Assembly: GCA_963556145.1 (NCBI GenBank)
Contig: OY744468.1
Location: 1,798,001 to 1,862,000 of the forward strand
DNA: 64,000 nt
Source of the DNA: Hygrocybe punicea
Lineage: Eukaryota > Basidiomycota > Agaricomycetes > Agaricales > Hygrophoraceae
Direction of reading: 5' to 3'
Position 1 is the stretch's first letter, and every line of letters starts with the position of its first letter. The translations under genes and the position numbers were made by a program. Shown piece after piece: positions 38,554 through 63,816 of the stretch. The notes beneath the pieces are model-generated. The model made no database searches and was not told the origin of the DNA. It saw only the letters and a program-made list of their open reading frames with translations.

Positions 38554-38566
38554 CAATAGTCCAGGG

Positions 38567-38905
38567 GGTTTTAGTTAAACTCAACCCAAGTTAAGGTATG
38601 AAAGTTAGGTGTACTATCTGCACTAGTAGCTGGGGCTTAAGTTAAACTCCCAGACAGTACCTGCTGCAATACAGTTAAACTTGGCCTAGCAATTACTGGT
38701 AGGTTCAGTTAAACTTTAGACAGCAGTGCTAAGGCCTTCAGTTCACTGTAAAGCTCAGTTAAACCCAGCCCAGTTGTTACTGTGAGCTTAGTTAAACTGT
38801 GTGCACTATTTACTGCATTGGCAGTTTAACTTTGAGCAGTAGCTACTGGATGGTCAGTTTAACCATCTGCAGCAGTTGCTGTACCCTCAGTTTAACCAGG
38901 TGCAG
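38567..38905. repeat. Left-arm minisatellite, AGTTAAACT core
   Basis: AGTTAAACT or its complement recurs every 30-45 bp with CAGYNNYTGCTGNA-type spacers. The outer part is the reverse complement of 48760-49035 with high identity. Confidence 0.8.
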
Positions 38906-39439
38906 CATTTGCTGAAACACATACCCTACACCACCAATAACCAGGCACTGATGTTCAACATCATATAGCATCTACTTAGTACTCCCAGAATTAAATTTGG
39001 ATTTTTGAGATGTGTACTCGCAAAGTTGGGTGATTAAGGGTCCAATTTTGGCAGAGGAATACAACACATTGTGAATATCTCTGTATGTAGGATCAAATAA
39101 AATACACAAATTAATCTAGGAGTAGGTATTCTACACTTGTATCTCTGGAGAGTCTTACTTTGTTGATACATGCATTATTGTGCATGCCAGAATATTCAAA
39201 ATGTTCCAGCCATAGTTCCATATTTAGCAACTCGACTCCATTTAGGAATTCAGCAACTGCCAGCTGGCTTTCCCGCACGACTTGAAGTTTTCAACAACGC
39301 AAAATGGGTGCAGAAGAGCACCCAAGGTTTTATTTTTATTTTTGAATCTTTTTATTTTTGCTAACTAAGGTAGGTGTTTGTGCAGTTACCCTGCGCCAAA
39401 CGCAGGCGAACCCGAACACCCACCAACCTACCCAGCCCA

Positions 39440-41040
39440 CAGTAGACCCAGTCATTTTGGTTAACCCAATCGCAGATATAGTTGCAAAAGGTAGGTACAC
39501 ATAGCGCAGTTGATTGCTGGGGGGGTAGGTTAACCCAAAAGACAGCACTTGCTGGGGAAATGTGGTGTGGTAGGTTGACCCAGGTCGGTTAACCCAGGGC
39601 AGCTATTCCAGGATGGTTGGGTTGACCCAGGCCCAGCTGTTCAAGCCATGTGGGTTGACCTGGCTGCAGTTATTGTTGCAGCACTGGGTTGACCCCAGTC
39701 CAGCTCTTGCTGCAGGCTGGGGTTGACCTAGATGCAGCTGTTGTTGCAGAACTGGGTTGACTAGGGCCCAGCACTTGCTGGAGGGTGGGGTGACTGGGGT
39801 CCAGCGATTGCTGCAGCACCGGGTCAACCAAGGGCCAGTTATTACTGCAGCATGGGGTTGACCTGGCCCCAGCTCTTGCTGCAGCACTGGGTCAACCAAG
39901 GGCCAGTTATTGCTGCAGCATGGGGTTGACCTGGTCCCAGCTCTTGCTGCAGCACAGGGTCAACCTGGGCCCAGCGATTGCTGCAGCATTGGGTTGACCT
40001 GGGCCCAGCTATTGTTGCAGCACTGGGTTGACCCGGGTCCAGCACCTGCTGCAGGGCTTGGGTTGACCAGGATCAGCTATTGCTGCAGCACCAGGTCGAC
40101 CTGGGCCCAGTTATTGCTGCCGCATTGGGTTGACCTGGGCCAGATATTGCTGCAGCATTGGGTCGACCTGGTCCCAGCTCTTGCTGCAGCATTGGGTTGA
40201 CCTGGCCCCAGCTCTGGCTGCAGAACCGGGTCAACCCAGGGCCAGCTATTGCTGCAGCATTGGGTTGACCTGGTCCCAGCTCTTGCCGCAGCACTGGGTC
40301 GACCTGGGCCCAGCTCTTGCTGCAGCATTGGGTCAACCCAGGTCCAGCTCTTGTTGCAGCATTGGGTCAACCCAGGTCCAGCACCTGCTGCAGGGCTTGG
40401 GTTGACCAGGGTCCAGCTATTGCTGCAGCACTGGGTTGACCCAGGTCCAGCACCTGCTGCAGGGCTTGGGTTGACCGGGAGCCAGCGATTGCTGCAGCAC
40501 TGGGTTGACCTGGCCCCAGCTCTTGCTGCAGCACCGGGTCAACCCAGGGCCAGTTATTGCTGCAGCATTAGGTGGACCCAGGTCCAGCACCTGCTGCAGG
40601 GCTTGGGTTGACCAGGATCCAGCTATTGCTGCAGCACCAGGTCGACCTGGGCCCAGCTATTGCTGCAACATTGGGTCGACCTGGGCCAGCTATTGCTGCA
40701 GGATTGGGTTGACCTGGCCCCAGCTCTTGCTGCAGCCCCAGGTCGACCTGGGCCCAGCTATTGCCACAGCATTGGGTTGACCTCAGCCTAGCTATTGCTG
40801 CAGCACTGGGTTGACCCAGGTCCAGCACTTGCTGCAGGATAGGTTGCCAGGGGCACAGCTCGTTCTGCACCATTGGGTTGATCCTGGACCCACTGATGGG
40901 GCAGGCTTGGGTTCACCAGGGTCTGGCTATTGCTCCAGCACTGCGTTGCCATGCCCAGCTTTTGCTGCAGAAATGGGTTGACCCTGGCCCAGCTCTCCCT
41001 GCAGCATTGGGTTGACCAGCGTCCAGCTCTTGCTGCAATG
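39440..41040. repeat. Left-arm minisatellite, GGGTTGACCC core
   Basis: About 40 units of 30-45 bp: GGGTTGACCY or its complement GGGTCAACCC, then a spacer resembling GGYCCAGCTATTGCTGCAGCA. The reading frames across it (WVDLGPALAAALG-like) are by-products of the repeat. Confidence 0.9.
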
Positions 41041-41761
41041 TGGGCTCATGTCGGTTGACAGGCTTGCATCACATCCCACTTTGCCTGCATGTATTTCATG
41101 TTCCAAACATTGCCAGAGCCCACACCAGCTCAAGCCAATATTTATTCAGAAACTGCCATATAAAGTAATCAAAATGTTTCAACCTGTACATGACATAAAT
41201 GTACCACATAATATAATTTGAATGCACTTATTAAAAACACAGGGAATAGCAAAATTAAAATTTTATTATTTTGACAATGCACAATCTCTTACTTTTACTA
41301 TCAGTCAGCCATTACAGGAGCTACTTATCCCCAATGACAATCTATGACAAAATCAGAACTTACCCCACTTGGAATATTGTGCTTTTCTATTCAATATTGC
41401 TCAATTCTCCATTGGAATCAATATATATAACCTCACTATTACTTAAAATAGACACATAAATTTAATGATTATTTTATCCAAATACCTAATTAAATAGTGA
41501 AGGGCAGAAGGCAGGTGAGAGGAAGATAGGTGGGTGTGGAGTGGGAAGACGGTGGGAGTGGGAGTGGGAAGAAGGTGGGAGTGGGAGTGGAGAAAGGTGG
41601 GAATGGGAGAAGGGGATGGGTGTGGGAGAAGGGGGTGGGAGTGGGAGAAGAGGGAAGGTGGAGGCAGGAGGGAAGGGCAGCAGGGAGAGGGAGAGGGAGA
41701 TGGAGATGGAGGAGGACTGGGATAGGGAGAGGGAGAGGGAGCAGGGGTGGGATGTACATAC

Positions 41762-42401
41762 CTCTCGCGTTTCCGTCGTCCTCGTCGTCTTCGTCTGCGT
41801 CTCCACCGTCCTCGTTCCCGTCGTCCCCGTCGCTGTCGTACCTGTTCCCGTCGTTCCCGTCCTCGTCGTCATCGTCCTCGTTGTCATTGTCATCCGCGTC
41901 TCCGTCCCCGTCCTCGTCCTCATCGTCACCTGGATGGTTGTCGTCGTCCCCCGGATGGTTGTCGTCGTCTCCGTCGTCCTGTCGTCCCGTCGCTATCCTT
42001 CTCCGCCCCGTCGTCCCCTCGCCGGCCGTCTGTGACCTCGTCGACTGTCCTCGTCGTTGCCGTCGTGGTTGTCTCGGCCGTCCGTCCTGGTCGTTGGCGC
42101 ATCCTCGTACCCGGCCTTGCGGCATCCTCACGGTGGCTGTTTTCGTCGGCTTCCGTTCTGTTTGCTGGCGCGTTGTGTTCTGCTGTTGGGTGTTCGGAAT
42201 CGCCTGTTTGGCGTGGGGTACCTCCAAAAGGTCAACAATTAGCAAAGAATACCAAAAAGTTAAAATCAGAAATTACCTTGGGTGCTCCTCTGCACCCGTC
42301 TCCTGTCGTTGACGCGTTCTTGTTGAAAACGAGTCGATGTTTGAACTCGTGCGGGAAAGCCAACCGGCAGTTGCCGATTTCCCAAACGGGTTCGAGTTGC
42401 C
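41762..42401 (-). CDS. Element-borne spliced acidic ORF, unit P (copy 1)
   Basis: On the minus strand, the conserved block GGCAACTCGAACCCGTTTGG.. (42401-42371) opens an exon-like stretch ending GCACCCAAG. A GTAATTT...TTTTGGAG/GTACC boundary follows, then a 160-residue frame. That frame begins VPHAKQAIPNTQQQN, has a basic middle (RRQRRG) and a Gly/Asp-rich acidic tail (GDDDNHPGDDEDEDGDG..), and ends at NARG just before GTATGTACATC. Two exon-1 frames are open, so the translated frame is not settled. A disordered nuclear-type protein is possible; function unknown. Confidence 0.35.
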
Positions 42402-43043
42402 AAACATGGAAGTGTCACTGAAGCTTTTGAATCTTCTAGCATGCACAACAATGCATGCATACCCGAAGTGAGATCCTCAAAAGGTGTAAATATGGTATAT
42501 CTACCCTCATACCAAAATTTGTATTTTATTCGGCCCTGCATCAAGAGCTATTCACAATTTATTCCATTCCTCTGCCAGAATTGGACCCTTAATGATCTAA
42601 CTTTGTCTTAAAAATCTGAAATTAATCTAAGGAGTACTTGAATGAGTACTCATTGTGGTACACATAAGTGCCTGATTGTTGGTGGACCAGGACCTTTGTT
42701 TCAGCCAAGCAAATGCACAGAATTGTGCATTGTGGCTGACCCATCAACCAAGTCCGAACTTCAAGTTCAGCTTTACTTTGAACCTTTCATTTCTTGGCTA
42801 CAACAGATTCTGGGACCACCAAGTGCCAGGCACTGATCATCAATACAATAGATACTTTACATAGTAGTTTCACAATTATTCTCATATTTTTCAAAGCAAT
42901 ATTGGTAAAGTAGCATTTGAAGGGTCCGAAATTGGCAGGGAGGTATCAATGAATCATGGATATCTCTCTATGTATGCCATAATAAAATACAAAATTTGGG
43001 AAGGATGTAGTTAGAGGCTAATTCTATCCCTACATGGTCTTAA

Positions 43044-43796
43044 ATGTGCTACACAGTTGTTGTGCTCCATGCAATTACACTGAGAAAAGTAAGATCTTGG
43101 TTACATATAAGGCAACTCGCGCCCGTTTGGGCAATCGGCAACCTCCGGTGTGGGTTCGCGTACTCCACGATGCGTCCACGAGAACAGCAACAGCAGCAAA
43201 ATCAAGTAGAAGGTATGTATATTTCTCAAAATTTATTACTATTACTATGCTAGCTAATATTATTGTTTTTATGAAGGACTTTCTCACTGCCACGCCTGGA
43301 ATTGATCGCAACACGCATGCCCACGCCATGTCACCTCAACGCCCAACTGAAGGGCTGAAACGGCGGATGGCAGGCAACGACGAGGACAGAGGTGACGAGG
43401 GCACAGACGGCCAGCCGGGGAAGACAACGGGGACGGAGACGGCCAGCGAAGAGACGACAGGACGACCATCCAGGGATCGACGAGGACGATGACGGGGACG
43501 GAGATGGGGACGACGACAACGAGGACGACGTTGGGAACGGGGACAACGGGGACGGGAACGACGGGGACGGCCAGCTAGGGGACGACAGGACGACGCAGAC
43601 GACGACGACCATCCATCGGACAACGAGGACTACGGCAGATGACGACGACAACGACAACGATGACGACGACGAGAGGAATGACGGGAACAGGAACGACAGG
43701 GACCGGAACGGCGTGGACGGGGACGGGGACGGGGACGGGAACGAGGGGGATGAGGACGGTGGAGACATAGACGAAGACGACGAGGACAACGGGAAC
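43044..43796 (+). CDS. Element-borne spliced acidic ORF, unit Q (copy 1)
   Basis: Exon 1 (from ATG 43044 or 43034 to 43212) contains the conserved block 43111-43141 and ends in a Gln-rich or Ser/Arg stretch, depending on frame. The intron is 43213-43276 (GTATGT..GAAG, 64 bp). Exon 2 gives HAMSPQRPTEGLKRRMAG and then a long Gly/Asp/Asn-rich acidic tract (DDDGDGDGDDDNEDDVGNG..) up to 43796, where GTATGTACAG follows. Joining the exons does not keep the acidic frame without a one-base change, so this copy may be broken. Related to unit P in order but not in exon-2 start. Confidence 0.3.
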
Positions 43797-44449
43797 GTAT
43801 GTACAGTCCACTCTCCTCCCTCTCTCCCTGTCCCTCTCCGTCTCCGTCTCCGTCTCCGTCTCTGTCTCCCTCCCTTCCCTGCTGCCTTCCCACCTTCCCT
43901 CTTCTCCCACTCCCACTCCCTTCTCCCACTCCCACCGTCTTCCCACTCCACACCCACCTATCTTCCTCTCACCTGCCTTCTGCCCTTCACTATTTAATTA
44001 GGTATTTGGATAAAATAATCATTAAATTTATGTGTCTATTTTAAGTAATAGTGAGGTTATATATATTGATTCCAATGGAGAATTGAGCAATATTGAATAG
44101 AAAAGCACAATATTCCAAGTGGGGTAAGTTCTGATTTTGTCATAGATTGTCATTGGGGATAAGTAGCTCCTGTAATGGCTGACTGATAGTAAAAGTAAGA
44201 GATTGTGCATTGTCAAAATAATAAAATTTTAATTTTGCTATTCCCTGTGTTTTTAATAAGTGCATTCAAATTATATTACGTGGTACATTTATGTCATGTA
44301 CAGGTTGAAACATTTTGATTACTTTATATGACAGTTTCTGAATAAATATTGGCTTGAGCTGGTGTGGGCTCTGGCAATGTTTGGAACATGAAATACATGC
44401 AGGCAAAGTGGGATGTGATGCAAGCCTGTCAACCGACATGAGCCCACAT

Positions 44450-46108
44450 TGCAGCAAGAGCTGGACGCTGGTCAACCCAATGCTGCAGGGAGAGCTGGGC
44501 CAGGGTCAACCCATTTCTGCAGCAAAAGCTGGGCATGGCAACGCAGTGCTGGAGCAATAGCCAGACCCTGGTGAACCCAAGCCTGCCCCATCAGTGGGTC
44601 CAGGATCAACCCAATGGTGCAGAACGAGCTGTGCCCCTGGCAACCTATCCTGCAGCAAGTGCTGGACCTGGGTCAACCCAGTGCTGCAGCAATAGCTAGG
44701 CTGAGGTCAACCCAATGCTGTGGCAATAGCTGGGCCCAGGTCGACCTGGGGCTGCAGCAAGAGCTGGGGCCAGGTCAACCCAATCCTGCAGCAATAGCTG
44801 GCCCAGGTCGACCCAATGTTGCAGCAATAGCTGGGCCCAGGTCGACCTGGTGCTGCAGCAATAGCTGGATCCTGGTCAACCCAAGCCCTGCAGCAGGTGC
44901 TGGACCTGGGTCCACCTAATGCTGCAGCAATAACTGGCCCTGGGTTGACCCGGTGCTGCAGCAAGAGCTGGGGCCAGGTCAACCCAGTGCTGCAGCAATC
45001 GCTGGCTCCCGGTCAACCCAAGCCCTGCAGCAGGTGCTGGACCTGGGTCAACCCAGTGCTGCAGCAATAGCTGGACCCTGGTCAACCTACCCTGCAGCAT
45101 GTGCCGGGCCAGGGTCAACCAAGTGCTGCAGCAATAGCTGGATCCTGGTCAACCCAAGCCCTGCAGCAGGTGCTGGACCTGGGTTGACCCAATGCTGCAA
45201 CAAGAGCTGGACCTGGGGTGACCCAATGCTGCAGCAAGAGCTGGGCCCAGGTCGACCTGGGGCTGCAGCCAGAGCTGGGGCCAGGTCAACCCAATGCTGC
45301 AGCAAGAGCTGGGACCAGGTCGACCCAATGCTGCAGCAATATCTGGCCCAGGTCAACCCAATGCGGCAGCAATAACTGGGCCCAGGTCGACCTGGTGCTG
45401 CAGCAATAGCTGATCCTGGTCAACCCAAGCCCTGCAGCAGGTGCTGGACCCGGGTCAACCCAGTGCTGCAACAATAGCTGGGCCCAGGTCAACCCAATGC
45501 TGCAGCAATCGCTGGGCCCAGGTTGACCCTGTGCTGCAGCAAGAGCTGGGACCAGGTCAACCCCATGCTGCAGCAATAACTGGCCCTTGGTTGACCCAGT
45601 GCTGCAGCAAGAGCTGGGGCCAGGTCAACCCCATGCTGCAGTAATAACTGGCCCTTGGTTGACCCGGTGCTGCAGCAATCGCTGGACCCCAGTCACCCCA
45701 CCCTCCAGCAAGTGCTGGGCCCTAGTCAACCCAGTTCTGCAGCAACAGCTGCATCTAGGTCAACCCCAGCCTGCAGCAAGAGCTGGACTGGGGTCAACCC
45801 AATGCTGCAACAATAACTGCAGCCAGGTCAACCCACATGGCTTGAACAGCTGGGCCTGGGTCAACCCAACCATCCTGGAATAGCTGCCCTGGGTTAACCG
45901 ACTCCATGGCAGAGCTGACACCAGGTTGACCCAACCAGCCAGCCTTGACCAGCAAGAGCTGTACCTGGGTCAACCTACCACACCACATTTCCCCAGCAAG
46001 TGCTGTCTTTTGGGTTAACCTACCCCCCCAGCAAGCAACTGCGCTATGTGTACCTACCTTTTGCAACTATATCTGTGATTGGGTTAACAAAAACGACTGG
46101 GTCTACTG
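44450..46108. repeat. Right-arm minisatellite, GGGTCAACCC core
   Basis: Reverse complement of the left arm (39440-41040) over most of its length. It has some units added or lost, including a segment of about 70 bp near 45905-45975 that is missing from the left arm. Confidence 0.9.
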
Positions 46109-46454
46109 CAGCCCAGACAAGAACACCATGGCCACCTCAGTAAACCCAACGGGCGCGGACCACAACGGTCCTGGTGAGGATAGCGGAAACGGCACGCGAC
46201 GCTGGGGAAAAAGATGCGCCAGATGGCAATGACAAGGACACAGACAGCCTGCCGACGAGGACGGAGACGGCCAGCCACGGGACGACAGGACGATGGAGAC
46301 GACGACGACCAACCAGGGGACGACGGCGAAGGAAACGACAAGCCCAGAGATGGGGACGACGGGGACAGGGACAGGGATGACGACGACAGGACGACGACGA
46401 GAACGGGGGATGACAACAGGGCGGGGACGACGACGACGGGACGAAGATGACGAC

Positions 46455-47597
46455 TAGTGTTGGGGAAGTTCGGTCTCAGACCGACCCAAACCCGGTTTAG
46501 ACCAAACCGAAACTGCCAATTTCGGTTTCGGTTTGGGAAATTTCGGCTGAGACCGAAGCGTTCAGTCTCCGGTTTGGAGCTTTGGCCGCGGGCCAAAACG
46601 GTTTCAAACTCAGTTTGAATCGCAAACCGACAGTACTTGGCTGACTTCGAAAGTCACCCAAATTCACCAACCCCCACCAACAACACCCCCGATGTACGCC
46701 AAACGAGGATGATGGAGCACCCGAGGTTGACAAAACGGGTGGAGGGGTACTCCCTGCCGCCCTCGTATGTTTTTTATTTATATTTATTCAAACTTAACTA
46801 ACACATTAACACATTACAGGTTGACGCACACCACCATCACCACCATCACCACCACCACGACGGCAACGACAGCGACTGCCACCATGACGGCCACAACCAC
46901 GACAGCAGCGATCAACGCCGCACCGGACACGCCAACGCCTCCAACGCGCGCGCACGCAAACGAACGTGAACGGGGTGGAGTGGCACTTGTCGAGCAGCGG
47001 GGGGTGGTGCATCCACCCCCGCTCCTTCGTGGTACGTATTTTTATTGATTTTTTCACTGATTTTATTTGTATATCACAGAATACCATCACCACCATGCAA
47101 CACTACCACCATCACCACCACGCAACACCAACACCACCGAGGAAGGCCAACGTGGGGTCAACCCGGCCGTCGTCGCGTGCACAACGCATATGACGCATGG
47201 GGCACCACCACCACCATCACGCGTCCATCGAAAATGGTCAACCCGCCACCGCGTGTACAACGCGTGTGATGCGTCAGGACACCCATGGAGAGGCCCGCGT
47301 GTGGCTCAATGCCGGCGCAGGGTGTGCCAGCACCCCAGCACCCCAATCCCACCTTGCAAGCAGGCTGGCCACGTCAATTGACGTGCGCAGCACTGTTGCA
47401 AGGTCAGAATGGTGCAGGGGGACTGGCCACTAGCCAAACGCGGTTCAGACCGCGTTTGGACCGAAACCGAACTGATGCAAACCATTTGCATCGGTTTCAG
47501 TCCGGTTTGGACATTTTGGGGTGGAAACCGGACCATTCGGTTTCCAGTTTGGGCAAAAAGGCCCCAAACCAGACCAAACCGAACTTCCCCAACACTA
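46455..47597. mobile_element. 1.1-kb hAT-like non-autonomous element
   Basis: Perfect 20-bp terminal inverted repeats TAGTGTTGGGGAAGTTCGGT / ACCGAACTTCCCCAACACTA, with CGGTTT-rich subterminal repeats on both sides. The flanks share only ACGAC (46450-46454, 47598-47602) in a GAC-repeat context, so the target duplication is ambiguous; hAT elements usually make 8 bp. The interior has exon-like blocks: GATGGAGCACCCGAGG, a T-rich GT..ACAG intron (about 46763-46819), a CACCAC-rich stretch, and a second T-rich intron (about 47030-47087). There is no hAT transposase. It sits in the GAC-rich exon of the 10.5-kb element. Confidence 0.65.
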
Positions 47598-47660
47598 ACG
47601 ACAACAAAGACAAAGATGAAGACGAGGACGGAGACGGGGACAGGGACGAGGACGACAGAG

Positions 47661-47930
47661 GTATGTACATGCCACCCCCCCTCCCCTCTCTCCTCCTCCC
47701 TCTCCCTCTCCCTCTCCCTGCTGCCCGTCCCTCCTCTTCCTTCTCCCACTCCCTTCTCCCACTCCTTCTTCCACTCCCACTCCCACTCCCACTCCCTTCT
47801 CCCTTCTCTCACCCCCCTTCCCTTCTCTCACCCCCCCTCCCTCCTCCCACCCCCTTGTCCCACCCCCACCCCCACCCTCTTCCTCCTCCCACCACCTCCC
47901 ACCTCTCACCACCAGACCACCACCACCAGC
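47661..47930 (+). repeat. Polypyrimidine tract after GTATGTACAT
   Basis: Begins at a splice-donor-like AGAG/GTATGTACAT and continues as CCCTCTCCC/CCCACTCCC repeats for 260 bp. Equivalent tracts lie at 41510-41755, 43800-43995, 59690-59880 and 62075-62340, and a purine version at 35135-35340. Confidence 0.8.
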
Positions 47931-48289
47931 CATATTTAATTATTTAATTATGTATTTAGATAAAATAATCATTTAATGTATATTTTCACTTAAGTAATAT
48001 TGAGGTATTGCTATTCGTATGAGGTATGTATTTATTTGGAATTGAGTAATATTAAATAAAAAAAGCACCATATTCCAAGTTGGGTAATTTCTGATTTTGG
48101 CATATAAGTAGCTCCTGTAATGGCTGATGATAAAACTGAGATATTGTGCATTTCCAAAATAATAATTTTGTAATTTTGCTATTCTCTGTGCTTTTAATAA
48201 TTCTATTTCATTATATTACAAGAAAATGGTTAACTGCCCACTGGCAACTGCCAGAAGAAAGTGAACTGCACCCCCTAGAAGAAACTGAC

Positions 48290-49035
48290 CATTCAGTAGC
48301 TACTGCTCTGAGTTAAACTGGGGGTCCAGCAACTGCTACACCTGGTTAAACTGGAGGTACAGTAGCTGCTGCTCCAAGTTAAACTGGAGGTGCAGCGGGT
48401 GCTGCACCTAGTTAAACTGAGGGTGCAGCAAATGCTGCACCTGGTTAAACTGACCATCCAGTAGCTACTGCTCCAAGTTAAACAGGGGGTCCAGCAACTG
48501 CAGCACCTGGTTAAACTGGAGGTACAGCAGCTGCTGCTCTGAGTTAAACTGGAGGTGCAGCAAGTGCTGCACCTGGTTAAACTGACCATCCAGCAGCTAC
48601 TGCTATGAGTTAAACTGGATGTCCAGCAAGTGCTGTATCTGGTTAAACTGAGCAATCAGTAGCAACTGCTCCGAGATAAACTAGACATCCAGCAAATGCT
48701 GCACCTGGTTAAACTGAGGGTACAGCAACTGCTGCAGATGGTTAAACTGACCATCCAGTAGCTACTGCTCAAAGTTAAACTGCCAATGCAGTAAATAGTG
48801 CACACAGTTTAACTAAGCTCACAGTAACAACTGGGCTGGGTTTAACTGAGCTTTACAGTGAACTGAAGGCCTTAGCACTGCTGTCTAAAGTTTAACTGAA
48901 CCTACCAGTAATTGCTAGGCCGAGTTTAACTGTATTGCAGCAGGCACTGTCTGGGAGTTTAACTTAAGCCCCAGCTACTAGTGCAGATAGTACACCTAAC
49001 TTTCGTACCTTAACTGGGGTTCAGTTAACTAAAAC
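48290..49035. repeat. Right-arm minisatellite, AGTTAAACTG core
   Basis: Units of 30-45 bp: GAGTTAAACTGG, AGGTNCAGCARCTGCTGC, then ACCTGGTTAAACTG. This arm is about twice as long as the left arm (38567-38905), so repeats have expanded or contracted. Confidence 0.85.
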
Positions 49036-49280
49036 CACAGGGACCACTGTTTATCTCTATGTCCCTCGTCACCCGACACCCGACCCGCCGTACCCGACAT
49101 TGTCGGCTTCGTCGGCTTTGACTGGTCTCGATAGATTTCAGTAGTTTACATGGCAGCTTCTTACCATTTATATCCTATCATCTTACTGAAGCTCGCTAGA
49201 CTATTCCTAGTCACTTTCACGCTGACCCCCACAGGCTTAGGATTACTATTCCGCAGCCACCCCGACCTCGCCTTTACATC

Positions 49281-49297: not shown

Positions 49298-49824
49298 AAT
49301 AGTCTAGCACCACCATAGCTTGCTCTTCCCGTATCCCTCCCTCTGACCGTCGTCTTCGAGATCTTCCTGGAAGAACTCTTCAACAAGAACTCTCTTTAGC
49401 TGCCTTCGACCCGACAATTGACGACGACTTCTTCCAGCTAGTACCCGACCACCTCGCTCAACATAACAATCTCCCGCTCATCTCAGGGTCAAATACCCCC
49501 CTATATCTATCATCCGACAGTCTCGAATCGGTTGATATACTGATAATTACCATAACACCCGACTCATCCGATCTCAGTTTGACACCCGCATCGCCTACAT
49601 CCCCGACTTTGACCTCGTTAGAACCCCCGTCCACGTCTTCACTCTCGACATCAAAAACTCCATCATCGTCATCGTCTCCGTCTTCACTCTCGACATTGAA
49701 AACTCCGTCATCGTCATCGTCCCCATCTTCGTCTTCGTCCACGCCGTCATCATCCACGTTACCCGACCCGCTCATCGTACACCCAACAACCGCTTCATTG
49801 ACATCTCAGCGCCTTTCACCCACA

Positions 49825-52157: not shown

Positions 52158-55100
52158 ATGAACTATGCTTCCCTTTTGCCGTTTCCCCTAGAAGAGGACT
52201 TATGTTTTTCTATCGATTTAGATTTCTCTTTGTCTCAGCCTCAGACTGCCGCCCAGTACATTTCATTGTTGACCGATGTACAAAATCAGCTATGTACTAC
52301 CGATACCCTTCCTTCGTCTTGTTCCGTCTCCGCTCCCGCGTCACCTATTTCGTCTTCACATATTTGTAACAAAGCCTCTACTGAACACGCTACTTATATC
52401 TCGTATACCACCCCCCCTACCAGGGACCTAAAAGGAGTCGTTACCAAGAAAAAGTATAAGAAGGTAGCCGATCGTATCCGCCCAATTTCTACCACTCTCC
52501 CCAACGAATACCGTATCATACGTGAGATCACTGGCGACCCGCTAGCCAATTTACCCACGCTCCCGACTCACCCGCCCAACTTTACACCCGGCACCCGCTA
52601 TACCCAGGAACGACATGACGTGATGCTGATGAACCCGGATGGATTCCTTTGGCCTGAGGAAGAAAAACTTGGCCACCATATCATCAAAATGCAAGAAGCC
52701 GCTTTCACCTGGAACGAATCTGAGAAAGGGCAGTTCAATACGGACTACTTCCCGCCAATCCACATTCCCACCGTACCGCACGACCCATGGGTCCATCACA
52801 ATATCCCAATCCCACCCGGTATCCTTAACGAAGTCATCGGCATTATCAAAGACAAAATTAACGCCAGTACCTATGAACCCTCAAATTCGTCATACCGCTC
52901 CTGCTGGTTCTGCGTTTTGAAAAAGGATGGGAAGTCCCTTCGACTCGTCCACGATCTACAGTCGCTTAACACCGTCACTATCCGCGATCCTGCTGTACCG
53001 CCCATGACCGAGCACTTGGCCGAGGCCTTTGGCGGCCACTCTTGATACGCTTCCTTCGACCTCTTCGTCTCTTTCGACCAACGCCTCGTCCACCCCTCGT
53101 CTCGGGACTATATGACCTTTCAGTCTCCACTCGGAACGCTTCGACTTACGTGGATCGCCATGGGATACACAAATTCCCCGCAGATCCTACACGGTGACTC
53201 CACATACATCCTCCGTGACGAAATCCCTCATCTTGCCGTTCCGTATATGGACGATATTCCCGTCAAAGGGCCTCCAACCCACTACGAGCAACCCGACGGT
53301 ACATACAAGACCATACCCGAGAACCCGGCAATCCGACGTTTCATTTGGGAGCACTTCCAAGGCGTCAACCGCGTCATCCAGCGTTTCTGCTATGTCGGCG
53401 GTACCTTCAATGGCAAGAAACTCGAGTTGTGTCGACCCTCAGTCATTGTTGTCGGCCACCGATGCACATACGAAGGAAGAGTAGCCGACGACTCCAAAGT
53501 ACAGAAGATTCGCGATTGGCCACTGCCGACCAACCCTACTGAAGTTCGCGCCTTTCTCGGTATCTGCGGCGTCTTGCGTATTTTTATCAAGGACTTCTCA
53601 CTCCACTCCCGACCCCTCGTCTGTCTTACCCACAAAGGTATACCCTTCGAATTCGGTGAAGAAGAAGAGACCGCCGTCGACTACCTCAAAAATGCCGTCA
53701 TTTCATCGCCAGCGCTGCGCGCTATCGATTACATGTGTGAATGGGAAGTGATTCTTGCCATTGATTCATCTGTCCTTGGAGTCGGCTTCGTTCTCATGCA
53801 AATCCACGCTGACGGAAAACGTTATCCGAATCGCTTTGGTTCAATATCGTGGAACGAACGTGAAGCCCGATACTCCCAGTCCAAGCTCGAACTCTACGGC
53901 CTCTTCAGGGCCCTCCGCGCCTACCGGATTTTCATTATCGGCGTCCGCAACCTCACTGTTGAAGTCAATGCGAAGTACATAAAAGGGATGCTCAACAACC
54001 CTGACATTCAGCCCAATGCAACGATCAACCGATGGATAGCTGGTGTGCTCTTATTTGATTTTAGACTCGTTCACGTACCCGCTTCCGCACACGGTGCACC
54101 CGATGGACTCTCCCGACGCCCCTGCGCTGCAGAAGACCCCGAGGAGATCAACGACTCCGACGATTGGCTCGACCACTCCTACGGTTTCTTTATGGAAGTC
54201 GTCAACTACCGACCCGTCCCCATACCGTCTATACCGATTGCCGTATGCGGCCGATGCCGTGCCACAGCCGACCGACTCCACGAGTTACCCGCCGTCCTCA
54301 TCTACACAAATCAGGAAGCCGTTTCTGACATACCGCGATCCGATAAAGCCCGCACGGCCGACGTTCATCTTGCCCTCGTCGAGACTTGGTTACGAGATCT
54401 AACCCGACCCGTGAACCTCACGGACGAAGAATACTGTCTGTTCTTACGATACGCCCTTGAATTCTTCGTCACCGATAACAAGCTTTGGCGCAAAGACCGT
54501 CACGGAAAACACAAACTTGTCATACCGCCCGACTGCCGGCTTCAGTTACTCAAAGACGCTCACGACTCTCTCGGCCATAAAGGCATATTCTCCGTCCGCG
54601 CACGGCTACTCAACCGTTTCTGGTGGCCGCACCTCGACCACGACGTTAAGTGGTACGTCCAGTCTTGCCATCAGTGCCAAGTACGGCAAATGCGTTATCA
54701 TCACATTCCGCCCACCGTCGCTACACCGGCCTCACTATTTTGTAAAGCGTATGTCGACACAATGTTTATGCCACGATCCGGCGGCTATCGATACATCGTC
54801 CAAGCCCGTTGCTCCCTGTCCGCCTACCCTGAGTTCCGCATGTTACGCCACGAGACTGGCTCCACCATTGTCACGTTCTTGTTCGAAGACATCTTATGCT
54901 GTTGGGGCGCTCTCGAAAAAATCGTCACCGACAACGGCAAGCCGTTCGTAGAAGCGCTCAACTATCTCGCCTCCCGCTACGGTATCCGGCACATCCGCAT
55001 TTCGCCCTATAACTCACAAGCAAACGGACCTGTTGAGCGTCGCCACCTAGATGTCCGGGAGGCCATTATGAAAAGTTGTGACGGAGATGAAAAGAAATGG

Positions 55101-55722
55101 CACACTGTAACCCACTCTGTATTTTGGGCCGAACAGGTCACGACACAAAAGCCTCGGATACTCGTCCTACTACATCGCACACGGAGTAGAACCGCTTTTT
55201 CCATTCAATTTTGCCGAAGCTACGTACATGGTTCCGACGCAAGATACGATGTCTACGACCGACCTCATAGTCATCCGCGCCCGACAACTTCGTAAACAAG
55301 AAGCCGACCTCAATCGGGTCAAAGAAAAGCTTACCAAATCTCGGCTCGCGTCCACCCGGCAATTCGAGCAGAAATACGCCAACACGATCAAAGTTTACGA
55401 CTTCAAACCCGGTAACCTCGTTCTCGTCCGAAATTCACGTATCGAAATGTCTCTCGATCGTAAAGCAAAACTGCGGTATTTTGGACCCATGGTTGTCATC
55501 AGGAAAACAGAAGGCGGATCCTACATACTCGCCGAACTCGACGGTGCGGTTTCTAAATCTCGATTTGCCGCTTTCCGAGTCTAACCCTACCACGCCCGCT
55601 CAAAAATATCGATACCGTTGGACGACTTCTTACAATACCCCGATGCCGACGATACCGATTCAAACGATCTTGATGATCCAACGTACCCGCCCTCTATAGA
55701 CTCCTCACCCAACGACGATTAA
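52158..55722 (+). pseudogene. Gypsy pol: RT, RNase H, integrase
   Basis: Order: linker; RT (WFCVLKKDGKSLRLVHDLQ.LN at 52905; a TGA at 53043-53045 where relatives have Cys; FQSPLGTLRLTWIAMGYTNSP; YMDD at 53244-53255); RNase H (LAIDSSVLGVGFVLM, QSKLELYGL, then VEVNAKYIKGM with Asn at 53967-53969 where Asp is expected). Integrase follows, with HHCC (GHKGIFSVRARL, CHQCQVRQ) and a D,D35E core: Asp 54756, Asp 54930, Glu 55035, spacing 58 and 35. A frameshift occurs near 55145. The frame resumes as LGYSSYYIAHGVEPLFPFNF and a GPMVVIRKTEGGSYILAELDG tail. A TAA at 55582-55584 precedes the final PYHARSKISIPLDDF.., ending at 55720-55722. Integrase core residues are intact, but the protein is not. Confidence 0.87.
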
Positions 55723-55927
55723 GCATTTCATTTATATTCTGTCCACGTTATACCCCCATTTTATTTAGTTCCTCTTAGTTTTCTAACGATATGACGAATG
55801 ATGCGAATAGTCCTATGTCTTCGGGAGCCGATCGGCTTTCCTTAGCTGAGTGAACAAGCTGACACGTCTTTTATGTACACGATATTTTATATATATATAC
55901 ACAACGGGCTCGTTATTTTTGTCTATC

Positions 55928-57325
55928 TTAGAGGCGGCCGGTCTCGTAGTCCTGCCTCAACATCACCAACCTTGAGGTCGACCGTTCGAGATCGACACAG
56001 AGCCGCTGGAACTCTTGACTGAAGTGGACGAGGTGACGGTTGACGTTGGTGCCCAGGGCTCCCAGCTCCTCCGTAAGGACCGCTAGCTGCACCGACACTT
56101 GCTCGTAATTCTCCATCGTCAAAACGAACGGGTTTGCTGCCGAGGCCGCCCTAAGCCTTTTCGTCGGCCGCTCTTCCTCCGACTCCTCCTCGTCATCGTC
56201 ATCGTCCTCGACCGACTCCACGTCCTTGACCCGCGGTTTGCTTGTTGAGGCCCGGGCAGGCCTACTGCGGATGGGCTTTGTTGTGAACGACAACGGCTTC
56301 CTTGTGCCGACCGCGACCTCTTTGCCCTTTCCGGTATCCACCTTGCGCCGACCCCCGCCCGTCCGGTGTGTAGCGTTAGTACATCTTTTCTTCAGCCTCC
56401 GGCATCGTTCGCACACGTAGCCCGTGACGCCTCGACACGCCTCTTGCGCCTTGACGCAGTTGGTGCAGGGTTGTAGGGGAAACGGCCCGGTGAACTGTTA
56501 CCAGGATCAGTGGCTAAAGAACAAATGAACCGACACAAGAACTCACCGTCGTACCAGCCAGGTCTCCGGTCTCTACGCCCGGCGTATCTACGTCTTCTAC
56601 ATCGGCCGGTGTCTCTGGTGCCGGGTCGACGGGGCCTTCCTCTGGCTCAACTGTGGCTTCGCCTTCCGGAATCGACTCAGTCCTTGGTTCACCCGCGACC
56701 GATGCGTTTGCTTCAGCTCGCCGTTCTTCGCTGAGCCGCCGCCGATACGCGGCTCCATCCCTTTCAACCCGGTCCACTTCTTGATTCCAGTGCTGCTCGT
56801 GTTGTTCTATTCTAAGCCGCTCCCGCCTTTCCTCTGCCGCCTTTCGCCTTTTCTCCGCCTCCGCTTGTGCATTTGCCTCTGCCATCCGTCTGGCCTCCTC
56901 TTCCCGCGTAGCCGCTTCTTCATCCGCCCGCCGTCTGGCTTCTTCCTTTTCCTGCCACTCTCAGTCCGCCGCTTCTTTCAGCCACTCTTCGACATCGTTG
57001 GCGTACGATTGGCGGTCGGCCCATAACGGTGGCGTTACTGGCCTTGTACCACCAGCTCGGAGTTCCGCGACGATTCCATTATAAGCACGCTGGCGGGACG
57101 ACATGAGCTATCTTAGGACACGCGTAGTCAATCGAGAAAACTCACCAGCGCTTTCTTGCGGCCGCTCAACCATTGTTGGGCCATCCCCTCATTGCCGTCC
57201 ACCATCGTTACAAGATCGTCGCTATGAAACACGGTGACCGCGTTGACGGCCTCTTCGTAGTCCGCCCGGACATCGGGTTCGATGCTTTCGACGAAGGCGA
57301 GGAAATTGTCGTAGACTTGGGACAT
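55928..57325 (-). CDS. Antisense zinc-cluster/coiled-coil gene inside the Gypsy element
   Basis: Three exons on the minus strand. Exon 1 is 57325 to about 57147 (MSQVYDNFLAFVESIEPDV.., SGRKKAL), followed by GTGAGT...GATAG. Exon 2 is about 57099-56547 (RQRAYNGIVAELRAG, WLKEAA, then a long charged coiled coil rich in Glu/Ala/Arg, then a Pro/Glu/Val stretch). An intron at 56495-56546 follows. Exon 3 is 56494-55928, with a Cys cluster CTNCVKAQEAC..CERCRRLKKRC resembling a fungal zinc cluster, an acidic EDDDDEEESEEE patch, RPTKRLR, and a helical C-terminus. An in-frame TGA at 56961-56963 (EAAD*EWQ) breaks exon 2 unless it is edited or spliced. It lies between pol and the 3' LTR, on the opposite strand. 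A DNA-binding role is inferred from the Cys cluster only. Confidence 0.6.
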
Positions 57326-57496
57326 TGTGAACGTGTGATGGTGTAGAGGAAAGGTCGGATCAACAACGAGATTTATTTTTATTTTTTTTACTTTGCCGTT
57401 GTTTGGCCGCTCACATGATTGGCCACATTCGCGACCCGCATTTGGAGACCCCAAATTCTCGACCATGGATGGTCTCTATTAGAAGACCCAAGGAGA

Positions 57497-58208
57497 TGTA
57501 GAGGGTCCTCGACCCTCTGAGGCCGTAACATCGATATCTAGCGAATCCGCTCGAACCCAACGTCTCTAGCAATCTACGCTCGAACCCGACGCAACCCGAC
57601 GCAACTCGATGCATACCGACTAGCATGGCCGCTCACATACCTGGTCGGTCCATCTCCTAAACTTACGGAACTTCAAATATCAAAGATAGATCTCATCGGA
57701 CTGGGATCCCGACATCGGACTTGCCTTATTCACGCCTAGCGTCTCCCTTATGGGGATATAGTAAAGTATATTGCATCTTTTACGGTTTTTATATCTTCCA
57801 CCCATTTTCCCTGTCATCGTCGCCTCGCAACGCTCTTCCTACTTCCCCATTTTTATTCTCCTTTGTTTCCTCTCATCGGCCGAGGACTCTCGTCCGAATC
57901 TAGGTACAGAAATTTGTAGTATAAAAACGGTGCCCAAGCGCCGTCTCAAAATAAGAAACCAGTTCCCCCATTTCCTCTCTCTGAGAATTAGTCTCTCAGT
58001 AAAATCCATCGCACACATTACTCGTCGGATTCCTCGACGCTCTCCCCGTTGTTCTACCGCCTTTATCTCTACGTCCATCGTCACCTGACACCCGACCCGC
58101 CGGACCCGACATCGTCGGCTTCGTCAGCTTCGACCGGTCTCGATAGATTTCAGTAGTTTACTCGGTGGCTTCTTACCTTTTATATCCTATTATCTTACTG
58201 AAGCTTGT
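57497..58208 (+). repeat. 3' LTR of the Gypsy element, left part
   Basis: Starts TGTAGAGGGTCCTCGACCCTCTGAGG, which contains a GAGGGTC/GACCCTC hairpin, after a purine-rich AGAAGACCCAAGGAGA. The LTR continues at 63817-63897 after the 5.6-kb insertion. CTATAAAAAC-like TAGTATAAAAACGG is at 57917. Confidence 0.87.
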
Positions 58209-59225
58209 CAGTAGACCCAGTCGTTTTGGTTAACCCAATCACAGATATAGTTGCAAAAGGTAGGTACACATAGCGCAGTTGCTTGCTGGGGGGGTAGGTT
58301 AACCCAAAAGACAGCACTTGCTGGGGAAATGTGGTGTGGTAGGTTGACCCAGGTACAGCTCTTGCTGGTCAAGGCTGGCTGGTTGGGTCAACCTGGTGTC
58401 AGCTCTGCCATGGAGTCGGTTAACCCAGGGCAGCTATTCCAGGATGGTTGGGTTGACCCAGGCCCAGCTGTTCAAGCCATGTGGGTTGACCTGGCTGCAG
58501 TTATTGTTGCAGCACTGGGTTGACCCCAGTCCAGCTCTTGCTGCAGGCTGGGGTTGACCTAGATGCAGCTGTTGCTGCAGAACTGGGTTGACTAGGGCCC
58601 AGCACTTGCTGGAGGGTGGGGTGACTGGGGTCCAGCGATTGCTGCAGCACCGGGTCAACCAAGGGCCAGTTATTGCTGCAGCATGGGGTTGACCTGGCCC
58701 CAGCTCTTGCTGCAGCATTGGGTCAACCCAGGTCCACCTCTTGTTGCAGCATTGGGTCAACCCAGGTCCAGCACCTGCTGCAGGGCTTGGGTTGACCAGG
58801 ATCCAGCTATTGCTGCAGCACCAGGTCGACCTGGGCCCAGCTATTGCTGCAACATTGGGTCGACCTGGGCCAGCTATTGCTGCAGGATTGGGTTGACCTG
58901 GCCCCAGCTCTTGCTGCAGCCCCAGGTCGACCTGGGCCCAGCTATTGCCACAGCATTGGGTTGACCTCAGCCTAGCTATTGCTGCAGCACTGGGTTGACC
59001 CAGGTCCAGCACTTGCTGCAGGATAGGTTGCCAGGGGCACAGCTCGTTCTGCACCATTGGGTTGATCCTGGACCCACTGATGGGGCAGGCTTGGGTTCAC
59101 CAGGGTCTGGCTATTGCTCCAGCACTGCGTTGCCATGCCCAGCTTTTGCTGCAGAAATGGGTTGACCCTGGCCCAGCTCTCCCTGCAGCATTGGGTTGAC
59201 CAGCGTCCAGCTCTTGCTGCAATGT
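58209..59225. repeat. Left-arm minisatellite of copy 2
   Basis: The same GGGTTGACCC/CAGCTATTGCTGCAGCA units as copy 1, with a block of about 600 bp of units absent. The reverse complement is at 62790-63809. Confidence 0.9.
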
Positions 59226-59885
59226 GGGCTCATGTCGGTCGACAGGCTTGCATCACATCCCACTTTGCCTGCATGTATTTCATGTTCCAAACATTGCCAG
59301 AGCCCACACCAGCTCAAGCCAATATTTATTCAGAAACTGCCATATGAAGTAATCAAAATGTTTCAACCTGTACATGACATAAATGTACCACGTAATATAA
59401 TTTTAATGCACTTATTAAAAACACAGGGAATAGCAAAATTAAAATTTTATTATTTTGACAATGCACAATCTCTTACTTTTACTATCCGTCAGCCATTACA
59501 GGAGCTACTTATCCCCAATGACAATCTATGACAAAATCAGAACTTACCCCACTTGGAATATTGTGCTTTTCTATTCAATATTGCTCAATTCTCCATTGGA
59601 ATCAATATATATAACCTCACTATTACTTAAAATAGACACATAAATTTAATGATTATTTTATCCAAATACCTAATTAAATAGTGCAGGGCAGAAGGCAGGT
59701 GAGAGGAAGATAGGTGGGTGTGGAGTGGGAAGACGGTGGGAGTGGGAGAAGGGAGTGGGAGTGGAGTGGGAGTGGGAGAAGAGGGAAGGTGGGAAGGCAG
59801 CAGGGAAGGGAGGGAGACAGAGACGGAGACGGAGACAGAGACGGAGAGGGACAGGGAGAGAGGGAGGAGAGTGGACTGTACATAC

Positions 59886-60660
59886 GTTCCCATTGTCCTT
59901 GTCGTCTTCGTCTATGTCTCCGCCATCCTCGTCCCCCTCGTTCCCGTCCCCGTCCCCATCCCCGTCCATGCTGTTCCAGTCCCTGTCGTTCCCGTTCCCG
60001 TCATTCCTCTCGTCGTCGTCATCGTTGTCGTTGTCGTTGTCATCTGCCGTAGTCCTCGTCGTCCGATGGATGGTCGTCGTCGTCTGCGTCATCCTGTCGT
60101 CCCCTAGCTGGCCGTCCCCGTCATTCCCGTCCCCGTTGTCCCCGTTCCCAACGTCGTCCTCGTTGTCATCGTCCCCGTCTCCATCCCCGTCGTCGTCCTC
60201 GTCGATCCCTGGATGGTCGTCGACTCCGTCGTCCTGTCGTCTCTTCGCTGGCCGTCTCCGTCCCCGTTGTCTTCCCCGGCTGGCCGTCTGTGCCCTCGTC
60301 ACCTCTGTCCTCGTCGTTGCCTGCCATCCGCCGTTTCAGCCCTTCAGTTGGGCGTTGAGGTGACATGGCGTGGGCATGCGTGTTGCGATCAATTCCAGGC
60401 GTGGCAGTGAGAAAGTCCTTCATAAAAACAATAATATTAGCTAGCATAGTAATAGTAATAAATTTTGAGAAATATACATACCTTCTACTTGATTTTGCTG
60501 CTGTTGCTGTTCTCGTGGACGCATCGTGGAGTACGCGAACCCACACCGGAGGTTGCCGATTGCCCAAACGGGCGCGAGTTGCCTTATATGTAACCAAGAT
60601 CTTACTTTTCTCAGTGTAATTGCATGGAGCACAACAACTGTGTAGCACATTTAAGACCAT
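59886..60660 (-). CDS. Element-borne spliced acidic ORF, unit Q (copy 2)
   Basis: Minus-strand counterpart of 43034-43796: exon 1 with the conserved block (60583-60553), an intron of 64 bp (about 60481-60418), then exon 2 starting ATPGIDRNTHAHAMSPQ and an acidic Gly/Asp/Asn tract ending before GTATGTACAG (59885). Small indels change the acidic frame relative to copy 1. Expression and function unknown. Confidence 0.3.
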
Positions 60661-61149
60661 GTAGGGATAGAATTAGCCTCTAACTACATCCTTCCCAAAT
60701 TTTGTATTTTATTATGGCATACATAGAGAGATATCCATGATTCATTGATACCTCCCTGCCAATTTCGGACCCTTCAAATGCTACTTTACCAATATTGCTT
60801 TGAAAAATATGAGAATAATTGTGAAACTACTATGTAAAGTATCTATTGTATTGATGATCAGTGCCTGGCACTTGGTGGTCCCAGAATCTGTTGTAGCCAA
60901 GAAATGAAAGGTTCAAAGTAAAGCTGAACTTGAAGTTCGGACTTGGTTGATGGGTCAGCCACAATGCACAATTCTGTGCATTTGCTTGGCTGAAACAAAG
61001 GTCCTGGTCCACCAACAATCAGGCACTTATGTGTACCACAATGAGTACTCATTCAAGTACTCCTTAGATTAATTTCAGATTTTTAAGACAAAGTTAGATC
61101 ATTAAGGGTCCAATTCTGGCAGAGGAATGGAATAAATTGTGAATAGCTC

Positions 61150-62072
61150 TTGATGCAGGGCCGAATAAAATACAAATTTTGGTATGAGGGTAGATATACC
61201 ATATTTACACCTTTTGAGGATCTCACTTCGGGTATGCATGCATTGTTGTGCATGCTAGAAGATTCAAAAGCTTCAGTGACACTTCCATGTTTGGCAACTC
61301 GAACCCGTTTGGGAAATCGGCAACTGCCGGTTGGTTTTCCCGCGCGAGTTCAAACATCGACTGGTTTTCAACAAGAACGCGTCAACAACAGGAGACGGGT
61401 GCAGAGGAGCACCCAAGGTAATTTCTGATTTTAACTTTTTGGTATTCTTTGCTAATTGTTGACCTTTTGCAGGTACCCCATGCCAAACAGGCGATTCCGA
61501 ACACCCAACAGCAGAACACAACGCGCCAGCAAACAGAACGGAAGCCAACGAAAATGGCCACCGTGAGGATGCTGCAAGGCCGGGTACGAGGATGCGCCAA
61601 TGACCAGGACGGATGGCCGAGACAACCACGGCGGCAACGACGAGGAAAGTCGACGAGGTCACAGACGGCCGGCGAGGGGACGACGGGGCGGAGAAGGATA
61701 GCGACGGGACGACAGGACGACGGAGACGACGACGACCATCCGGGGGACGACGACAACCATCCAGGTGACGACGAGGACGACGACGGGGACGGAGACGCGG
61801 ATGACAACGACAACGAGGACGATGACGACGAGGACGGGAATGACGGGAACAGGTACGACAGCGACGGGGACGACGGGGACGAGGACGGCGGAGACGCAGA
61901 CGAGGACGGCGGAGACGCAGACGAGGACGACGGGACGAGGACGACGGGATGAGGATGACGGGACGAGGATGACGGGACAAGGATGACGGGACGAGGACGA
62001 TGGGATGAGGATGACGGGACGAGGACGGCGGAGATGCAGACGAAGACGACGAGGACGACGGAAACGCGAGAG
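61150..62072 (+). CDS. Element-borne spliced acidic ORF, unit P (copy 2)
   Basis: Exon 1 has an open frame from ATG 61150 through the conserved block (61293-61323) to 61417. The intron is 61418-61472 (GTAATTT..CTAAT..TTTTGCAG, 55 bp). Exon 2 starts VPHAKQAIPNTQQQN and gives a basic stretch then a Gly/Asp-rich acidic tail. A local expansion of GACGGGACGAGGAT-type repeats (61915-62035), absent from copy 1, disrupts the tail frame. The donor-like GAGAG/GTATGTACAT follows at 62073. The exon-1 frame that joins exon 2 in register carries upstream stops, whereas the long open exon-1 frame joins out of register. Coding status is uncertain. Confidence 0.35.
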
Positions 62073-62789
62073 GTATGTACATCCCACCCCTGCTCCCTCT
62101 CCCTCTCCCTATCCCAGTCCTCCTCCATCTCCATCTCCCTCTCCCTCTCCCTGCTGCCCTTCCCTCCTGCCTCCACCTTCCCTCTTCTCCCACTCCCACC
62201 CCCTTCTCCCACACCCATCCCCTTCTCCCATTCCCACCTTTCTCCACTCCCACTCCCACCTTCTTCCCACTCCCACTCCCACCGTCTTCCCACTCCACAC
62301 CCACCTATCTTCCTCTCACCTGCCTTCTGCCCTTCACTATTTAATTAGGTATTTGGATAAAATAATCATTAAATTTATGTGTCTATTTTAAGTAATAGTG
62401 AGGTTATATATATTGATTCCAATGGAGAATTGAGCAATATTGAATAGAAAAGCACAATATTCCAAGTGGGGTAAGTTCTGATTTTGTCATAGATTGTCAT
62501 TGGGGATAAGTAGCTCCTGTAATGGCTGACGGATAGTAAAAGTAAGAGATTGTGCATTGTCAAAATAATAAAATTTTAATTTTGCTATTCCCTGTGTTTT
62601 TAATAAGTGCATTAAAATTATATTACGTGGTACATTTATGTCATGTACAGGTTGAAACATTTTGATTACTTCATATGGCAGTTTCTGAATAAATATTGGC
62701 TTGAGCTGGTGTGGGCTCTGGCAATGTTTGGAACATGAAATACATGCAGGCAAAGTGGGATGTGATGCAAGCCTGTCGACCGACATGAG

Positions 62790-63809
62790 CCCACATTGCA
62801 GCAAGAGCTGGACGCTGGTCAACCCAATGCTGCAGGGAGAGCTGGGCCAGGGTCAACCCATTTCTGCAGCAAAAGCTGGGCATGGCAACGCAGTGCTGGA
62901 GCAATAGCCAGACCCTGGTGAACCCAAGCCTGCCCCATCAGTGGGTCCAGGATCAACCCAATGGTGCAGAACGAGCTGTGCCCCTGGCAACCTATCCTGC
63001 AGCAAGTGCTGGACCTGGGTCAACCCAGTGCTGCAGCAATAGCTAGGCTGAGGTCAACCCAATGCTGTGGCAATAGCTGGGCCCAGGTCGACCTGGGGCT
63101 GCAGCAAGAGCTGGGGCCAGGTCAACCCAATCCTGCAGCAATAGCTGGCCCAGGTCGACCCAATGTTGCAGCAATAGCTGGGCCCAGGTCGACCTGGTGC
63201 TGCAGCAATAGCTGGATCCTGGTCAACCCAAGCCCTGCAGCAGGTGCTGGACCTGGGTTGACCCAATGCTGCAACAAGAGGTGGACCTGGGTTGACCCAA
63301 TGCTGCAGCAAGAGCTGGGGCCAGGTCAACCCCATGCTGCAGCAATAACTGGCCCTTGGTTGACCCGGTGCTGCAGCAATCGCTGGACCCCAGTCACCCC
63401 ACCCTCCAGCAAGTGCTGGGCCCTAGTCAACCCAGTTCTGCAGCAACAGCTGCATCTAGGTCAACCCCAGCCTGCAGCAAGAGCTGGACTGGGGTCAACC
63501 CAGTGCTGCAACAATAACTGCAGCCAGGTCAACCCACATGGCTTGAACAGCTGGGCCTGGGTCAACCCAACCATCCTGGAATAGCTGCCCTGGGTTAACC
63601 GACTCCATGGCAGAGCTGACACCAGGTTGACCCAACCAGCCAGCCTTGACCAGCAAGAGCTGTACCTGGGTCAACCTACCACACCACATTTCCCCAGCAA
63701 GTGCTGTCTTTTGGGTTAACCTACCCCCCCAGCAAGCAACTGCGCTATGTGTACCTACCTTTTGCAACTATATCTGCGATTGGGTTAACCAAAACGACTG
63801 GGTCTACTG
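62790..63809. repeat. Right-arm minisatellite of copy 2
   Basis: Reverse complement of 58209-59225, differing at only a few positions by eye. Confidence 0.9.
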
Positions 63810-63816
63810 AGCTTGT

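Follow-up and report, generated by a model that had tools for sequence, protein, structure and literature searches.

Probable non-autonomous KDZ transposons with iteron-filled palindromic arms and 7-bp target duplications in Hygrocybe punicea

Introduction

Among described DNA transposons, the Kyakuja branch of KDZ elements is closest to those treated here. In the portion of a recent survey available to us, Kyakuja is given with 7-bp target site duplications (TSDs) and CA..TG ends, two of its families being without terminal inverted repeats (TIRs); TSDs of 8 bp are given for Zisupton and a Dileera family, and of 7 bp for hAT7 (Kojima 2025, PMC12730594). The DNA analysed in the present study, hereafter the window, is a stretch of 64,000 nt from the 92.2-Mb genome of Hygrocybe punicea (contig OY744468.1, positions 1,798,001-1,862,000), which carries three large palindromic elements of two related families, designated T1 and T2. 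We consider it quite probable that these are non-autonomous foldback-type KDZ DNA transposons, most likely of the Kyakuja branch, and that a CxC2-KDZ transposase, the product of rare T1 elements, moves T1 copies.

Two Kyakuja families of Laccaria bicolor, Kyakuja-1_LB and Kyakuja-2_LB, are like T1 in having a KDZ transposase, a 7-bp TSD, CA..TG termini and a fungal host, as far as the available part of their description extends (PMC12730594). The elements KDZ1-KDZ3 of Cryptococcus neoformans are, in the accessible part of the source, KDZ elements of about 9-11 kb that have TIRs and a CxC domain of the Zn-chelating type, but their TIRs are 139-241 bp long, their TSDs are 8 bp (KDZ1) or 4-8 bp (KDZ2 and KDZ3), and their domain is CxC1, whereas CxC2 was found here (PMC12810828). 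Long foldback-like TIRs and internal tandem repeats with multiple transposase binding sites have been described for Galileo of Drosophila, a member of the P superfamily, in the section of the source available (PMC3688188). Galileo differs in its P-type THAP transposase, and the similar architecture does not imply kinship with T1 or T2. In the literature surveyed, which consisted mostly of open papers and was in part accessible to us, we found no description of KDZ elements with kilobase-long iteron TIRs. Two features are unusual, namely TIRs composed of 34-bp (T1) or 33-bp (T2) units, as in Galileo, and the unlike tips of T2 on nearly identical arms.

Results

Elements in the Window

Ends and coordinates of the three elements were read directly, and each element is flanked by an exact 7-bp TSD (TTTATCT, CAGCCCA and AGCTTGT, respectively). 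In the initial annotation the three insertions had been described as related in their ends and flanked by exact 7-bp duplications, and all coordinates, ends and TSDs given there were confirmed on re-reading. The annotation had also placed the three in one group; the relation of the ends stands, but the elements belong to two families, T1 (39440-46108 and 58209-63809) and T2 (38554-49049). The features are as follows, in window coordinates.

38554-49049: T2 element, 10,496 bp long with the nested T1 counted in; tips CAATAGTCC (left) and the complement of CAGTGGTCC (right); ends and TSD read, same left and right tips found genome-wide, empty sites found
38547-38553: left TSD of T2, TTTATCT; right copy at 49050-49056
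38578-38914: left arm of T2, 99% complementary to 48690-49026
48312-48749: 33-bp iteron array in the right arm of T2, about 13 units, GTTAAAC motif
39440-46108: T1 nested in T2, 6,669 bp; TSD CAGCCCA at 39433-39439 and 46109-46115; empty site in two other T2 copies
39651-41037: 34-bp iteron array in the left arm of the nested T1, about 41 units; mirror at 44450-45835
58209-63809: second T1 element, 5,601 bp; TSD AGCTTGT at 58202-58208 and 63810-63816; empty sites found
58482-59221: 34-bp iteron array in the left arm of the second T1, about 22 units; mirror at 62797-63536

The window was also scanned for CA..TG ends that form an inverted repeat in at least 16 of 24 bases, lie 0.7-30 kb apart and are flanked by an exact 7-bp repeat. 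This gave 12 matches, namely the three elements and nine with ends in their internal 33/34-bp arrays. The arms of the second T1 are about 1,590 nt long and 98% complementary, and those within the nested T1 extend over 1,172 nt at 100%. In the outer T2 the arms are 337 nt long at 99%, yet between its two tips there are 5 differences in the first 24 bases. Arms of T1 are arrays of 34-bp units (about 22-41 per arm in the window copies), and the right arm of T2 is built of 33-bp units; motifs like GGTTRAC and GTTAAAC recur mostly at steps of 33/34 bp or multiples thereof and are present also at the tip. Minisatellites occur in the element interiors. A repeat at 47162-47604, inside T2, is 90% shared with DNA adjoining a KDZ gene on contig C41 (L050).

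T1 and T2 in the Whole Genome

Further copies with matching termini, for which the initial annotation had proposed a genome-wide search, are present: a 20-mer end consensus had 146 and 139 matches on the two strands and its reversed control had none, so the consensus is above chance. The T1 end CAGTAGACCCAGTCGTTTTG occurs exactly 256 times (119 + 137), both tips of T1 being identical. Pairing and proximity counts use 200 of these 256 positions; among them are 72 adjacent inward pairs, of which 62 span 5.2-10.6 kb and ten span 14-55 kb; in the longest, adjacency may in some cases be accidental. Among 37 T1 ends that had been chosen by an exact 20-bp match, all share the same first 26 bp, and for this reason T1 activity has probably been recent.

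T2 has two different fixed tips, despite the 99% likeness of the arms that follow them in the window copy. The right tip CAGTGGTCCCTGTGGTTTTAGTTAA has 29 matches with 3 mismatches or fewer (26 of them exact) and the left tip CAATAGTCCAGGGGGTTTTAGTTAA has 30 (25 exact), one left tip, at C3:3890491, reading CT instead of CA. A degenerate end pattern, confined to types without G at position 20, gave 56 matches, which are the T2 tips and three T1 variants.

Exact 7-bp TSDs flank 24 of the 25 T1 pairs examined: 17 of 18 pairs fetched whole, all four long pairs of 18-39 kb, both window copies and the KDZ-bearing element described below. Pair L027 has no TSD; L018, which is a T2 element, and L019, whose fetch was incomplete, are outside this score. 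Among 15 left/right pairs of T2, the TSD is exact in six, has one mismatch in four and is lacking in five (the window copy is exact, the other 14 being divided 5/4/5). The pairs without a clean TSD are at C3:831488, C33:5904649, C35:2984660, C35:3042608 and C3:3890491. Flanks of two of these copies, C35:2984660-2990545 and C35:3042608-3047012, are mutually reverse-complementary, and both probably derive from a single insertion whose surrounding segment was duplicated in inverted orientation. No TSD was found in either of two left/left pairs, one of which spans 43 kb and perhaps consists of chance neighbours; a third such pair (C2:5035834) is outside this count. The element L018 (C2:4732913-4736867) has two right tips and no TSD. 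Its flanks are nearly identical inverted copies for about 45 bp, so the palindrome extends past the element, and a T2 left tip was found 78 bp outside one of its ends. No base preference was obvious among 30 exact TSDs.

A CxC2-KDZ Transposase in T1-Ended Elements

Both KDZ genes (at least 186 matches) and hAT genes (at least 152) are abundant in this genome, and 150 candidates were scored in each search. The longer copy with a transposase that the initial annotation had proposed to look for was found at C35:5028002-5038637. This 10.6-kb element has exact T1 ends, an exact TSD (AGCTTGG) and, inside, a KDZ transposase piece of 126 aa that matches Pfam KDZ at E 2.6e-35 (122.5 bits, cut-off 26.6); the sequence read consists of the tips and this one domain piece of 378 bp. 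Relatives of the piece in public protein data are up to 97% identical, and some are named KDZ transposase by their sources.

When KDZ genes were ranked by identity to the C35 piece, after two contig-end duplicate rows had been dropped, five of the eight that are at least 82% identical were within 8 kb inside an exact T1 end, compared with one of the 140 others (Fisher p 6e-7); with the limit set to 14 kb the counts are five of eight and four of 140 (p 1.2e-5). Four copies have a T1 end 2.0-5.3 kb to the 3' side of the KDZ gene. Distances to the T1 end on the 5' side are 6.9 and 7.5 kb for two copies, 15.8 kb in a pair spanning 18.0 kb and 37 kb for the copy on C7. A Zn-chelating CxC domain is associated with KDZ, and in all five T1-linked copies CxC2 (PF18803) starts about 1.05 kb before it. 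The two Laccaria bicolor families carry TET/JBP according to the available part of their description (PMC12730594), whereas comparison of genome-wide profile matches gave no TET/JBP match in C35:5028002-5038637. In the whole genome there are 122 TET/JBP dioxygenase matches, several of them within a few kb of KDZ matches.

The initial annotation had stated that no transposase is inside, and none was recognised in the window copies by a Pfam scan of ten open reading frames, which had no domain above cut-off and two weak matches below it, or by tblastn with KDZ queries. These queries, the KDZ piece and the longest frames of 30 KDZ loci, detected no KDZ in 20 fetched stretches or in the window elements; the KDZ piece as a query detects 20 of 30 other KDZ loci. 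The fetched copies were covered by tblastn with KDZ queries and the Pfam scan covered the window frames. The sole window match of these tblastn searches is a repeat that also occurs next to a KDZ gene. Inspection by eye recognised no transposase in the frames of three longer copies (L010, L021 and L025) or in the middle 4 kb of an 8.6-kb T2 element on C35. In L021, a stretch of frames is repeated 2.9 kb apart. Conversely, the first 30 KDZ loci contain no terminus-like sequence inside at up to 6 substitutions, and no clean KDZ element ends were recognised in their 1.5-kb flanks. The existence of copies in which no transposase was recognised together with a coding T1 element on C35 agrees with the suggestion in the initial annotation that the elements are non-autonomous partners.

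Empty Sites and the Host Ty3 Retrotransposon

An empty site carrying a single copy of the duplication was found for each of the three window insertions. T2 and the second T1 occupy, respectively, the 5' and the 3' long terminal repeat (LTR) of one Ty3 retrotransposon, and thus each LTR is the empty site for the other.

38004-38553, plus strand: 5' LTR of the host Ty3 retrotransposon, aligned first part; split by T2, resuming at 49057-49278
57519-58208, plus strand: 3' LTR of the same retrotransposon, aligned first part; split by T1, resuming at 63817-63897

The two LTRs align at 92.5% over 772 bp, and the sole gap is at neither junction. A further LTR copy, on C40 (L038), is empty at both sites, and the place of the nested T1 is empty in two other T2 copies (matches 78/80 and 72/75).

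The Ty3-type retrotransposon (window 49303-57500) is 94% alike to L059 (C3:834000-842000), and the C3 copy has an uninterrupted frame of 1,257 aa. Antisense frames occur in the retrotransposon too, and the one at window 55928-56497 (minus strand) has a Cys-rich CxxC..CxxC stretch, which looks Zn2Cys6-like by eye and has no Pfam match. A nested copy of the same retrotransposon is contained in a 14.8-kb T2 pair on C3.

Other Features of the Window

Another inverted arm pair, about 7-9 kb apart, is at 6258-7196 and 14430-15325. It resembles DNA beside a KDZ gene (L040), and short parts of it resemble the LTR-bearing L038. A Plavaka transposase fragment is at 2442-3323 (minus strand; Pfam E 5.5e-50), and a fragment of an SPT5-like KOW-domain protein at 27852-28766 (minus strand; KOW1_SPT5, E 5e-10).

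Discussion

Assignment of T1 to the KDZ superfamily is based on a KDZ domain within an element with these ends (the 126-aa piece on C35) and on CxC2 upstream of KDZ in five T1-linked copies. Placement in the Kyakuja branch is most likely; it is derived from the 7-bp TSD (24 of 25 T1 pairs) and from the CA..TG termini, found in the ends examined bar the one T2 left tip with CT, and not from a tree. T2 would be a sister family, related to T1 by its ends and its type of iteron, with iterons of its own and two unlike tips, and presumably served by a related transposase.

Several points weigh against this interpretation. No transposase has been tied to T2. Over 150 of the 186 KDZ matches as a whole, positions within 12 kb inside T1 ends are not significantly in excess (five against an expectation of 2.8, a number reached in 299 of 2000 shuffles), although four of those five are one close group and one lies inside an exact T1 pair on C35. 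The 82% identity cut was picked after the ranking had been seen, and both T1 ends and a TSD have been checked in a single KDZ-bearing copy, which is itself known from its tips and the 378-bp piece, not from the whole gene or 34-bp arrays. Of the close KDZ genes, C3:1422795 and C8:5982173 have no exact T1 end nearby on fully listed contigs, and C39:893915 sits where T1 ends were only partly listed. Some spans are odd, since the 5'-side end of C35:4243620 is 15.8 kb off and upstream of the C7 copy no exact end occurs for 37 kb. Furthermore, Kyakuja-1_LB and Kyakuja-2_LB, as given in the available part of the source, have no TIRs, in contrast to the kilobase-long iteron TIRs of T1 (PMC12730594).

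KDZ genes might be passengers, that is, parts of other KDZ elements inserted in T1, and T1 might then belong to another transposase. In favour of this, KDZ matches number at least 186 in this genome and most T1 copies are without KDZ, and two probable cases are at hand: a 21-kb T1 pair on C3 holds a 28%-identical KDZ and a TET/JBP gene, and a 24-kb T2 pair on C33 holds a distant KDZ of 30% identity and a T1 end inside, probably nested. As an account of the close KDZ genes we regard it as unlikely. One and the same close clade is found at five different loci with exact T1 ends, compared with one of 140 other KDZ matches within 8 kb; the T1 end within 5.3 kb is always 3' of the gene (four of four); and the C35 element of 10.6 kb would exceed the common copy of 5.2-7.5 kb by only 3-5 kb.

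The initial annotation had raised an undescribed superfamily as one possibility. Kilobase iteron TIRs and unlike tips like those of T2 are without a KDZ description in the literature surveyed, as far as it was accessible, and T2 is without a known transposase. A new superfamily with 7-bp duplications is nevertheless very unlikely, and for T1 the proposal is not supported, because a KDZ transposase is present at T1-ended loci and both the 7-bp TSD and CA..TG ends are already reported for Kyakuja. The same annotation had named 8-bp duplications with a known transposase as evidence that would contradict it; the transposase superfamily has turned out to be known, and the duplication is 7 bp. Tips starting with CAGTG would suit hAT. 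Genes of hAT are abundant here (at least 152 matches), and hAT7 families with 7-bp TSDs are given for rust fungi in the available part of the survey (Kojima 2025, PMC12730594). When 146 of the 152 hAT matches were compared with 200 of the 256 T1 ends, however, none was found at up to 8 kb inside a listed T1 end, three were found at up to 14 kb, and the T1-ended coding element carries KDZ; the chance that these are hAT elements appears slighter still. Galileo has a TSD of 7 bp. Its long repeat-filled TIRs, in the accessible part of the description, resemble the architecture seen here (PMC3688188), and yet membership of the P superfamily is extremely improbable in view of the KDZ gene that sits in T1-ended elements. 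A profile search of the genome with PF21787 (P transposase RNase H) gave no match, which is weak evidence since control genomes were likewise silent.

Under the favoured interpretation of T1 and T2 as KDZ transposons, T1 copies would be mobilised by the CxC2-KDZ transposase of a few coding T1 elements, for example C35:5028002-5038637, through cut-and-paste movement with a cut presumably staggered by 7 bp. The arrays of 33/34-bp units may recruit this transposase, since each unit has a GGTTRACC-like (T1) or GTTAAAC-like (T2) motif that is present also at the tip. By analogy with what has been proposed for Galileo, the arrays could serve as cooperative docking sites.

A more speculative extension, which we hold as possible but doubtful, is that T1 and T2 are two orthogonal dialects of one KDZ system, T1 with 34-bp GGTTGACC units and identical tips and T2 with 33-bp GTTAAAC units and unlike tips, each being read by its own diverged CxC2 domain. 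Array growth would then reflect an advantage that extra docking sites give to non-coding copies over coding ones in the competition for transposase. If this is true, the fixed tip asymmetry of T2 would mean that the KDZ synaptic complex distinguishes left from right despite palindromic arms.

To our knowledge, KDZ transposons have been little studied biochemically. Ends and TSD length are now defined for T1 and T2, and there are candidates for the binding units and for the transposase locus, by which end recognition in KDZ transposons becomes testable. Since foldback, iteron-filled TIRs are here linked to KDZ, outside the P superfamily, the comparison with Galileo suggests that docking arrays may have evolved convergently.

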